From Sulfuricaulis sp. (GTDB taxonomy: Bacteria; Pseudomonadota; Gammaproteobacteria; Acidiferrobacterales; Sulfurifustaceae): a stretch of 64,000 nucleotides of DNA. The stretch is taken from positions 1 through 64,000 of the forward strand of contig NZ_JANLGY010000028.1 in assembly GCF_024653915.1 (NCBI RefSeq), in the 5' to 3' direction. How positions within the stretch are numbered: position 1 is the first letter of the stretch; every line of letters starts with the position of its first letter. A model generated the notes under the pieces. That model was not told where the DNA came from, did not search any database, and worked only from the letters and a program-made list of their open reading frames with translations. This document shows, in pieces, positions 21,214 through 48,831 of the stretch. The translations under genes and the position numbers were made by a program.

Positions 21214-21314
21214 GACAGGATTTACAGGATTAAAAGACAGGATTAGCAGGATTTCTTTTGAATTTAGAGAATTTTTAATCCTGTGAATCCTGAAAAATCC
21301 TGTTAATCCTGTCC
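21214..21314. repeat. ACAGGATT tandem-arm inverted repeat (family B, copy 1)
   Basis: Left arm GACAGGATTTACAGGATT plus two further units (GACAGGATT, AGCAGGATT). Right arm AATCCTGTGAATCCTG, then AATCCTGTTAATCCTGTCC. It lies between bufC and dsbB. Other copies are near 28553, 29956, 31429, 35384 and 48737. Confidence 0.88.
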
Positions 21315-28713: not shown

Positions 28714-29949
28714 AATTCGAATGTTCCCAACAACAACGCCGTCGAAGACAAGCTGGTTGCCGCGCGCACCTGGCTGATCATCGACAAGCCCTTCCTTGGT
28801 GCATTGGTATTGCGCCTGCCGCTGGTGGAGGCGAATCCGAAATGGTGCCCAACCACCGCGACCGATGCGCGCTCGTTCTATTACAACCCCCGCTATATCG
28901 AGGCGCTTTCTTTCGAGCAAACCAAATTTATCCTGGCGCATGAGGCGCTGCATTGCGCACTGTCGCACTTTGCACGCCGCGAGCACCGCGACAAACGTCG
29001 CTGGGACCTAGCCTGCGATTTTGCGATTAACCCTCTGCTCGTGGGAGACGGACTGAAACCGGCACCGGATGCGCTTATTCTCGACGCCTACCAGGACATG
29101 ACCGCGGAGGAAATTTATCCCTGCCTCCAGGAAAATGTCGAGCAAAAACCCATGGATCAGCATCTGTACGATCAGGACGATAAGCCGCCGGGACCGGGCG
29201 AACAGGGTGGCGGCGAAAGTGGCGAGGGACAGGCACCGGACGATGACGGCAGCGGGAGCCAAGGCGAAATCGATTCACAAGCCAATGGTGCGCCACAGCC
29301 ACCGCCGCTTTCCGGCCCGGAACGCGATTCGCTCCACAAGCAGTGGCAACAACGCCTCGCCTCGGCCGCGCAACAGGCCATTCAGGCCGGCAAACTTGGC
29401 GGTTCGATGGCGCGCATCGTGGACCACTTGCTGCAACCGCAGCTGCCGTGGCGCATGCTGCTCGCACACTACATGACGCGCGCCGCGCGCGACGATTACA
29501 GCTTCGCGCATCCGTCACGGCGCGAGGGCACCGCCATCCTGCCCGGTATGCGCAGCCAGCACATTGACCTCGTCGTGGTACTCGACACCAGTGGTTCCAT
29601 CTCGGACGAGGAAATGAAGGAATTCGTGAGCGAGGTCAACGCCATCAAGGGCCAGGTCGGCGCACGCATCACGTTGCACGCCTGCGACGACAAGCTGGCC
29701 CAAGACGGGCCCTGGACCTTCGAACCGTGGGAGGAAATTGAACTGCCGAAACAGTGGCACGGCGGCGGCGGAACACGATTCACGCCCATCTTCGATTGGG
29801 CCGAGAGCCAGGAACGGCCACCGAATCTGCTGATGTACTTCACCGACGCTAAGGGTGAATTCCCCAAGCGCGAGCCGTTCTATCCGGTGCTGTGGCTGGT
29901 CAAGGGCAAGGAGAAAGTGCCTTGGGGCCAACGCATCCAATTAAACTGA
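28711..29949 (+). CDS. Putative metallopeptidase with C-terminal VWA-like domain (DUF2201)
   Basis: A 412-residue protein. The N-terminal region has a zinc-peptidase motif HEALHCALSH near residue 75, with the downstream DLACDFAIN glutamate/aspartate region. A Gly/Glu/Asp-rich linker (about 155-215) follows. The C-terminal VWA-like domain carries LVVVLDTSGSISDEE near 289, a MIDAS-type DxSGS motif. It is the natural partner of the MoxR ATPase just upstream. The only start before the conserved region is a GTG at 28711, which lies inside the family B repeat arm (AATCCTGTGAATTC). The original start may have been displaced by the repeat. Confidence 0.85.
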   Translation: MNSNVPNNNAVEDKLVAARTWLIIDKPFLGALVLRLPLVEANPKWCPTTATDARSFYYNPRYIEALSFEQTKFILAHEALHCALSHFARREHRDKRRWDLACDFAINPLLVGDGLKPAPDALILDAYQDMTAEEIYPCLQENVEQKPMDQHLYDQDDKPPGPGEQGGGESGEGQAPDDDGSGSQGEIDSQANGAPQPPPLSGPERDSLHKQWQQRLASAAQQAIQAGKLGGSMARIVDHLLQPQLPWRMLLAHYMTRAARDDYSFAHPSRREGTAILPGMRSQHIDLVVVLDTSGSISDEEMKEFVSEVNAIKGQVGARITLHACDDKLAQDGPWTFEPWEEIELPKQWHGGGGTRFTPIFDWAESQERPPNLLMYFTDAKGEFPKREPFYPVLWLVKGKEKVPWGQRIQLN

Positions 29950-29955
29950 TTTAAT

Positions 29956-30216
29956 GGACAGGATTAACAGGGCGAAGCGGAGTAGTCGCCGATGCACTTA
30001 ACGTGCATCGGCGCCGCTGAGCGCCCGCACAAGGAAGTGCGGGCCGGGGCTCATCGAAGCCACAGCGGTGGCGCCAGGGACGGCAGGCAAGCCTTCCATG
30101 GCGAGGGAATGAAACTTCGACATACTCGGCCCCGCCATCCATGGCGGGGCGCTCGCCGGGACGAAGACACGTTAAGTGTCTTCGTCTGTTTCCGGCTCGC
30201 CCTGCTAAATCCTGTC
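29956..30216. other. Hairpin-rich structured element bounded by family B repeat arms
   Basis: Arms GGACAGGATTAACAGGGCGA (29956-29975) and TCGCCCTGCTAAATCCTGTC (30197-30216) bracket about 220 bp with five perfect hairpins. These are 29987-30013 (11-bp stem, loop TTAAC), 30023-30044 (8-bp stem), 30059-30072, 30129-30150 (10-bp stem) and 30160-30186 (11-bp stem, loop GTTAA). The two outermost loops are complementary to each other. There is no credible open frame. It could be a structured RNA or a compound repeat. Confidence 0.7.
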
Positions 30217-30233
30217 AATTCTCTTTTTTAATA

Positions 30234-31397
30234 ATGGAACTTTCCAGCGAAGACCTGCTGCGGCTGAACGTGCTGCTCGCCAACGACATCGAGGCGATCC
30301 GCATCGACGAGCAGAGCATGACGCTCTACGGACTGGCGCGCGGCAACGAGGCGCGCGTGCCGCTCAACCCCAATTGCCGTCCGGAAAAATATTTGCGGCT
30401 GGTGCGCGAAATGCTGTCGAGCCACGTGCTTGGTTCGCCCGGCGGTTATCCGGTGTTCCTGCAACGCTGGACGCGCATGGGCCAGGCGCGCGAGGCCCGG
30501 CTGGATAAACTGCTGTTGCTCGGCGAACCCGAGGCGGTCACCGCTGTGGCCGGCGCGTCGGGCCTGAGCGACGATCTGGCGCGACGCGCGTGGTGGGCCC
30601 AGCCGACCTCCGACATCGCGCGGCGCATGCTCGATAAGCCGGCCGTGGTGCAGGGAAAGATGGGCAAGGAACTCGCGGATTATCTGGCGGAACATCTGCC
30701 GTTCGAGTCCGACCCGATGCTGGTCATCGCCACGATACGGCTCATTCTCCAGCCCGGCCTGATCGACGCCGAACCGCGCGATCGCATCTTCCGCCTTGGC
30801 ACGCATCGCAATGCCTACCACATCGGATTCCTGGAAGCGCTGCCGGACGAGCTGCCCGATCCCTTGCCGGTGCGGGATGACCATGCAAACTATCGCGACA
30901 CACTTACAGCGCTGGCAACCGCTGGCAATACGCTGGCAGCCTTGCTGGCCAAGCTGCTCGACAGTCCGGGCCAGACTTTTCTCGCTGTTTCCGAGACACA
31001 ACTGCAACACCCGATAGACAAATACACTGTTGCCAAGCTGATGGATATCATCGGGAATTACTTCAAGCCGGCGTTGGGCGCGCAGGGAACGGCCGGAGAG
31101 ATCAGCGCGGCCACGGCCCGTGCGGAAAAACGGATGGCAACCGCCGGCAACAAAGCTGCCGTGCTATTGGATGCCGTTCCGGAACTGCGAGAAGAAATTG
31201 CCGCCATGCTCACTCTCGCGCACACCGGCGAGGCACTGGTCACGCCCATTATCGCTGCGTCCACCGCGAGCGGGACCTTGCTGCGCCGCAAGCTGGAACC
31301 GGTGCTGGAGCCGCTGCTGCAACAATACGCGGTGCTGCGCAAAACAGCGCACGCGCCGTCCGGCAGCAGGGCCGCGCGGCGTATGCCTGGAAAATAG
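30234..31397 (+). CDS. DsrS-like protein of unknown function
   Basis: A 387-residue soluble protein without signal peptide or membrane segments. It begins MELSSEDLLRLNVLLANDIE and includes LGSPGGYPVFLQRWTRMGQ near residue 70, then helical repeats. From memory it resembles DsrS, a cytoplasmic protein of unknown role encoded in dsr sulfur-oxidation clusters of purple sulfur bacteria. I could not check this. It follows the MoxR and VWA genes on the same strand, suggesting a three-gene unit interrupted by repeats. The ATG at 30234 gives the family-like start; the longer upstream frame runs through the structured element and is not credible. Confidence 0.6.
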   Translation: MELSSEDLLRLNVLLANDIEAIRIDEQSMTLYGLARGNEARVPLNPNCRPEKYLRLVREMLSSHVLGSPGGYPVFLQRWTRMGQAREARLDKLLLLGEPEAVTAVAGASGLSDDLARRAWWAQPTSDIARRMLDKPAVVQGKMGKELADYLAEHLPFESDPMLVIATIRLILQPGLIDAEPRDRIFRLGTHRNAYHIGFLEALPDELPDPLPVRDDHANYRDTLTALATAGNTLAALLAKLLDSPGQTFLAVSETQLQHPIDKYTVAKLMDIIGNYFKPALGAQGTAGEISAATARAEKRMATAGNKAAVLLDAVPELREEIAAMLTLAHTGEALVTPIIAASTASGTLLRRKLEPVLEPLLQQYAVLRKTAHAPSGSRAARRMPGK

Positions 31398-31428: not shown

Positions 31429-31502
31429 GACAGGATTCACAGGATTAACAAGATTTTTGTTTCACAATATTTTTAATCCTGTAAATCCTGTTAATCCTGT
31501 CC
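31429..31502. repeat. ACAGGATT tandem-arm inverted repeat (family B, copy 3)
   Basis: Left arm GACAGGATTCACAGGATTAA, spacer of about 25 bp, right arm AATCCTGTAAATCCTG then TTAATCCTGTCC. It lies between the convergent ends of the DsrS-like gene and the 102-residue hypothetical gene. Confidence 0.88.
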
Positions 31503-35383: not shown

Positions 35384-35457
35384 GGACAGGATTCACAGGA
35401 TTAACAAGATTTTGTTCACAAGATTTTTTAATCCTGTAAATCCTGTTAATCCTGTCT
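35384..35457. repeat. ACAGGATT tandem-arm inverted repeat (family B, copy 4)
   Basis: Left arm GGACAGGATTCACAGGATTA (from 35384), spacer of about 25 bp, right arm AATCCTGTAAATCCTG then TTAATCCTGTC (to 35457). The right arm overlaps the last codons and stop of gnd, and the element splits the gnd-zwf operon. Confidence 0.9.
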
Positions 35458-48736: not shown

Positions 48737-48831
48737 CACAGGATTTTTCAGGATTTACAGGATTAAGAATTATTGAATTTAAAGATTGAATCCTGTTAAT
48801 CCTGTTTTAATCCTGTAAATCCTGTCTATTT
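48737..48831. repeat. ACAGGATT tandem-arm inverted repeat (family B, copy 5)
   Basis: Left arm ACAGGATTTTTCAGGATTT plus ACAGGATTAA, a short spacer, right arm AATCCTGTTAATCCTG, TTTTAATCCTG and TAAATCCTGTC. It lies between the convergent ends of galT and the 63-residue gene and supplies the latter's stop codon. Confidence 0.88.

Follow-up and report, generated by a model that had tools for sequence, protein, structure and literature searches.

Inspection of the window, the whole 64,000-nucleotide stretch of Sulfuricaulis sp. DNA analysed here, indicates that the 268 bp at positions 29953-30220 form a copy of a mobile DNA repeat that is composite, non-coding and non-autonomous, a reading to which we assign a probability of about 0.68. 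The element consists of two diverged units of ~118 bp that lie tail to tail and are flanked by inverted B arms. It recurs in multiple copies whose flanks are unrelated, relatives have a plain B element or a short spacer at the orthologous site, and the unit also occurs alone. Such solo units are present in most family genomes, often immediately behind an NGG, with the end of the gene restored on their far side. The parts of the element are as follows, where R1 denotes a model built from the unit alignment.

29953-29971, + strand: left B arm, AATGGACAGGATTAACAGG, whose final AGG doubles as the NGG preceding the unit
29969-30087, + strand: left ~118-bp unit (R1 match 129.2 bits, E 8.7e-27)
29987-30013, + strand: hairpin 1 of the left unit, 11 bp (29987-29997 with 30003-30013), loop TTAAC
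30023-30044, + strand: hairpin 2 of the left unit, 8 bp (30023-30030 with 30037-30044), loop AAGGAA, of the A.GGA type
30059-30072, + strand: 5-bp hairpin (30059-30063 with 30068-30072), missing from the consensus structure of 49 units
30072-30103, no strand assigned: tail-to-tail junction, where the third hairpins of both units are able to fuse into a single stem
30088-30203, - strand: right unit, diverged from the left (R1 match 116.1 bits, E 9.3e-24)
30129-30150, no strand assigned: hairpin 2 of the right unit, 10 bp (30129-30138 with 30141-30150)
30160-30186, no strand assigned: hairpin 1 of the right unit, 11 bp (30160-30170 with 30176-30186), loop GTTAA on the + strand
30202-30220, - strand: right B arm, reverse complement AATTGACAGGATTTAGCAG

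Both units of the window belong to the alignment from which R1 was built. The element almost fills its intergenic space, since the upstream gene ends at 29949 and the downstream gene begins at 30234 with an ATG that is kept in most of the relatives seen. The upstream protein contains two DUF2201 domains (metallopeptidase-like and VWA-like), and the downstream protein, called DsrS-like in the sequence-only reading, matches no Pfam family. No gene is assigned inside the element: a frame that opens at 30141 is part of the downstream gene, which has its conserved ATG at 30234. Folding of positions 29950-30225 gives values 11-12 SD below dinucleotide shuffles, both for single-stranded DNA and for RNA of either strand.

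The sequence-only reading had described five perfect hairpins of 11, 8, 5, 10 and 11 bp bracketed by B-family arms. All five stems are exact, and the arms are present with their ends at about 29953 and 30220. The 5-bp hairpin, however, finds no counterpart in the 49-unit consensus, and a third conserved short hairpin, GCC..GGC, has to be added at the point where the units meet (30072-30103). That reading had also noted that the loops TTAAC and GTTAA are complementary and might kiss to close a cruciform. The loops are mirror images because the element comprises two inverted copies of one unit, but there is no sign of an evolved kissing pair: the TTAAC loop occurs in 45 of 49 units, solo units included, which leaves kissing or a closed cruciform unsupported as its purpose.

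A search with the DNA of the window element returned 25 matches in its own genome, some of them one palindromic place counted on both strands. These include two other near full-length copies (C17, C4) as well as fragments at contig ends; assemblies tend to break at repeats. Matches were found in 23 of 60 genomes, its own included, mostly within the same family. Sixteen full or nearly full composite copies could be aligned from five genomes of the genus (three in G000, seven in G005, four in G008 and one each in G006 and G003), two with deletions in the unit region and one with an insert of ~78 bp. All follow a common plan with few changes: AATnGACAGGATTnACAGG, the left unit, a variable middle, the right unit and the far end CCTGnTTAATCCTGTCnATT. 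Hairpin 1 of the left unit shows compensatory variants among the aligned copies. The outer flanks of the 16 copies are unconserved and their sites unrelated, and comparison by eye of these flanks and of sites lacking the element gave no clear target duplication around the composite.

The B arms belong to a repeat family with a patchy distribution of its own. Allowing up to one mismatch, the B word GACAGGATTNACAGGATT has 102, 123 and 116 matches in G000, G005 and G008, respectively, and none in G001, G010, G011 and G020; its reversed control likewise gave none. G001 belongs to the same genus as the B-rich genomes, and B elements were also seen in G006, in G002 and in G009 of another genus (L111). 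B and the unit are separate families, since G011 lacks the B word yet holds at least 22 unit matches. Some B elements of G008 carry other cargo between their arms (L275-L278). Further B palindromic elements lie elsewhere in the window at about 21214-21313, 31429-31501, 35385-35456 and 48747-48826. At four G008 loci (L276, L277, L278 and L274), B elements contain or adjoin another palindromic repeat (TTAATCAGA... with ACGCAAAGACGCAAAG) and, as read from their sequences, appear to be repeats nested in repeats.

Comparison of the orthologous gene pair provides a view of the site without the composite. A plain B element lies there in G008, G006 and G002, and its start corresponds approximately to the bases of the window's left B arm. 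Short spacers without any element are found in G005, G007, G001 and G010, as well as in the more distant G020, G023 and G024. By reading, the same slot holds a different repeat-like sequence in G003 (L136), G012 (L147) and G004 (L142); G026 has a longer insert, and G011 has a long spacer containing a unit-like stretch. The comparison yields no junction for G009. Because other species hold other repeat-like sequences there, the slot looks like a landing place for repeats. With a plain B element at the site and B cargo elsewhere, the composite is a B element with an inverted unit pair as its interior. The suggestion of a transposition unit riding on B arms was right in its essentials: five genomes have the composite, with arm and unit junctions in common and unconserved flanks, and its site in sister species holds a plain B element or a short spacer.

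To describe the unit itself, 49 copies, composite-derived and solo, were aligned over about 118 bp (A1), with duplicate loci and partial hits dropped; since loci were taken from the best matches, well-conserved units are over-represented. The consensus structure has 29 pairs, 20 of them with changes on both sides. Pairing holds in 99.1% of 1421 cells (shuffled mean 81.3), and 272 cells are changed on both sides, against a shuffled mean of 95.8 with none of 500 shuffles as high and at most 75 when partners are slid by 1-3 columns. These double-changed cells are not independent events, because the left and right composite units form two related groups. The covariation that the sequence-only reading had named as a check is plainly present, as are homologues and further copies in the genome. 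A chance cluster of REP-like hairpins, the fallback offered with that reading, is contradicted by the copies, the conserved structure and the shuffles, and we regard it as practically out of the question. Base identities are also constrained: an A.GGA loop caps hairpin 2 in 47 of 49 units and hairpin 3 in all 49, and in the basal stem GA faces GA in 49 of 49 and 48 of 49 units. G-U pairs are scarce, at 14 of 1421 cells (1.0%) compared with 40 of 752 (5.3%) in 36 tRNAs of the loci studied. Selection on RNA usually leaves more G-U pairs; such scarcity would be expected of a DNA hairpin, or if one arm were repaired from the other, and is indirect evidence for DNA.

Matches to R1, whose per-genome counts are lower bounds, were found in at least 19 of 20 family genomes, with 1 to at least 54 in each, the weaker ones partial or diverged; G000 has at least 32 and G008 at least 49. 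Among 299 genomes drawn evenly from the phylum, 9 match under strict filters (E 1e-4; own genome included), and several of these have units that start at the stop codon of genes whose ends read like xerD, guaB and others. In one genome (G113; L091, L099), relatives of the hairpin unit, ~101 bp each, form a tandem array where an xerD-like gene ends. A strict word scan of genome contigs returned 46 stretches, and a search of viral contigs for the exact unit pattern returned none.

Solo units reveal how the unit meets its target. Of 86 hits in 67 loci, 79 could be used, the other seven missing the unit start or having a short flank. In 38 of the 79 (32 loci), the unit directly follows a fragment X whose last three bases are NGG, and X recurs on the downstream side as the opening bases of an intact feature, whereas a control pairing flanks of different loci passes in 161 of 6134 cases (2.6%) at a score of at least 12. 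At a score of at least 16, 37 of the 38 are retained, against 75 of 6134 controls. The passing hits are not all independent: they include tandem arrays (L014, L061, L082, L166), C-rich repeats (L036, L174), a nested case (L080) and several orthologous sites. In L169 the alignment is off by two bases. The remaining 41 hits have no target repeat. The same NGG rule holds in the window, where the AGG of the left arm ends exactly at the unit start.

The repeats are about 16 to 100 nt long. X often starts at, or just a few bases from, the mature 5' end of a tRNA (sense), a tRNA CCA end (antisense) or a start codon, the protein genes being recognised by reading alone. X extends further in L014, L157 and some others, so one account would be that about as much sequence was duplicated as was needed and that selection kept the cases with an intact gene. 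The first tRNA within 120 bp of 80 hits lies downstream in sense in 10 cases, downstream in antisense in 14 and upstream in antisense in 2. Elsewhere the unit's own GGGTGA closes a long upstream frame, as in L059, L064 and L074.

Sites at tRNA-Thr illustrate both states. In G002, G006, G007 and others the site is unfilled, with the native leader directly before the tRNA; in G000, G008, G009 and G005 it is filled, in the order leader, X, unit, spacer and tRNA. Unit and spacer of G005 are unlike those of the other three and may represent a separate insertion. Comparisons among the three alike units, in an alignment fitted to the structure, give 2-3 pairs with double compensatory changes, 1-2 with one-sided changes and 0-1 broken. 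X is identical at 19 of 19 positions in the four genomes while the adjacent leader has drifted, which makes a passive scar unlikely; some function, repeated insertion or gene conversion may account for this identity. The leader in G001 (L197) has remnants of X and spacer and looks like the trace of a unit since lost. In two tRNA-Thr copies the folds hinted at guide-like pairing between unit and target; this is not general, with a mean of 5.19 against 5.17 for cross-pairs.

The conserved loops invite an RNA interpretation, in which the unit is a structured RNA that titrates CsrA/RsmA through its two A.GGA hairpins and tandem G.A stem, and transposition multiplies the sponge. We consider this improbable. 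The loop and G.A counts given above favour it, as do the pairs kept by double changes at the shared tRNA-Thr site, and the window's best weak Rfam match is to RsmW (24.4 bits where the gathering score is 52; E 0.069). Against it stand the near-absence of G-U pairs, the occurrence of units antisense as well as sense to tRNAs, and the lack of any Rfam family above threshold at any unit tested; across 29700-30500 nothing exceeds threshold, with RsmW, Ysr224 and a microRNA model as weak matches. A match to sX4 at L156 is mostly the neighbouring tRNA-Ser. The unit shares A.GGA loops with CsrA sponges of the CsrB/RsmX/Y/Z type but is dispersed DNA in both orientations rather than a single sRNA gene, and it has no Rfam match over threshold. 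The closest RNA likeness is TwoAYGGAY (RF01731), which the accessible portions of PMC4333381 and PMC2864571 describe as having two GGA-loop hairpins and a tandem G.A stem, with Gammaproteobacteria among its hosts; for this RNA, with its pair of such loops and tandem GAs, the portion of PMC4333381 seen also offers a CsrA reading. The unit has the same two GGA-loop hairpins and tandem G.A stem, but its loops are A.GGA rather than strictly AYGGAY, and units draw no covariance-model match over threshold: the RF01731 model lists no match at any unit tested, and in 20 family genomes and 14 control genomes nothing passes its cut-off. Below that cut-off (26-40 bits against 43), matches are present in 7 of the 20 family genomes (L269, L270, L271, L272 and L273); they lie in stretches rich in hairpins, some of which adjoin repeats of the AAAGAAA type; by their sequence, these stretches are possibly a second dispersed family of GGA hairpins. 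As for the structured RNA envisaged by the sequence-only reading, GGA loops conserved on one strand speak for it and the scarcity of G-U pairs against it, and it is neither established nor dismissed. We also regard as rather unlikely a reading in which the solo unit would be mobile by a novel logic of insertion and double as a mobile regulatory RNA, with two CsrA-type loops on its one-strand fold. Such a unit would enter after NGG, within a few dozen bases of either end of a tRNA or protein gene, and would rebuild the gene by re-adding its end on the far side (from the mature end of the tRNA or from the start codon) or by supplying a stop codon of its own (GGGTGA).

Two further alternatives concern the enzyme that moves the unit. 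Searches of the 20 family genomes for Y1_Tnp and RVT_1 tied no mobilising enzyme to B or to the unit. Paired inverted REP units are known as REPINs, and the REPIN layout of two inverted units with a variable middle is that of the composite. Membership in a REP/REPIN family, with movement by a RAYT (Y1) transposase encoded in the same genome, would also accord with the distribution of Y1_Tnp: the 14 of 20 family genomes that have it hold 6 to at least 54 unit matches, and the six without it 0 to at least 5, a correlation confounded by kinship and assembly quality. We nonetheless judge this origin quite unlikely. Five of the six Y1-free genomes still carry 1 to at least 5 units. Among 27 loci scanned with flanks of about 1.5 kb (20 of 43 Y1 hits and 7 reverse-transcriptase hits), no RAYT gene between two inverted copies was found: the unit is present in one locus, about 1 kb from the gene, and the B word is absent from 26, lying in L111 about 1.2 kb from the gene. 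Among the loci whose flanks were seen, four Y1 genes (L106, L107, L118 and L121) have other inverted repeats on both sides. The available part of PMC2817692 includes in the REP definition a GT(A/G)G head before the palindrome; this head is not conserved in the 49 units, in which some, the window's left unit included, have GTAG but the bases vary. Very unlikely, in our estimate, is SINE-like retrotransposition, in which unit RNA would be copied into DNA at a nick after NGG to leave target repeats of variable length. It would suit the one sharp end (NGG), the repeats of about 16 to 100 nt and the other end, often a mature tRNA end or start codon. RVT_1, however, occurs in just 5 of 20 family genomes and is missing from G000 and G008, which are rich in units; the presence of reverse transcriptase is not correlated with units across the 20, and it was rejected as the mobiliser. 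Compensatory changes nearly without G-U also speak against retrotransposed RNA.

The composite mobile repeat remains our preferred reading, and it could have arisen as follows. Units would have inserted at the NGG of both B arms, the B interior would have been lost, and the product would have spread as a B-type element. The moving form would most likely be a single-stranded DNA fold on which some transposase or nuclease acted in trans, and a DNA hairpin would be what the compensatory changes preserve.

The element works like a MITE or REPIN and, by the features tested, is outside the REP/RAYT family. Like a MITE it is short (268 bp) and non-coding with terminal inverted arms, and it is multicopy at unrelated sites and absent from the orthologous site of relatives, the window's site alone having been compared. 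Correia and ERIC are familiar small palindromic repeats of bacteria. The element resembles MITEs and these repeats, as well as the RU elements treated in the accessible part of PMC2759123, in being short, non-coding, multicopy and intergenic with inverted terminal arms; here, however, ends and interior come from two different nested families, and no autonomous partner was found among the 27 Y1 and reverse-transcriptase loci scanned. With REP/REPIN-RAYT systems it shares palindromes with complementary changes, two inverted units around a variable middle and hosts with Y1 genes, but its unit is ~118 bp long with three hairpins, does not flank the scanned Y1 genes and has target repeats at its solo sites. 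Integron attC sites have RYYYAAC and GTTRRRY core sites and are served by the integron integrase; TTAAC and GTTAA lie here at the hairpin tip rather than at unit ends. A limited literature search on the B word, CsrA with mobile repeats, repeats at tRNA genes and Sulfuricaulis repeats, to which we give little weight, found neither family described; the portion seen of the Sulfurifustis/Sulfuricaulis genome paper (PMC5024460) mentions CRISPR alone under 'repeat'.

The element at 29953-30220 is a clear case in which one small repeat has nested in a second family and the composite of both has spread, with relatives that show both the plain host repeat and the bare spacer. Its hairpin unit also illustrates that strong covariation alone does not prove RNA, and near-absent G-U pairs may tell DNA hairpins from structured RNA. 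That unit, together with its junction at NGG and the gene ends it leaves restored, is more surprising than the composite. Solo units pose a testable question of how non-coding DNA inserts at both ends of tRNA genes and leaves each tRNA whole.
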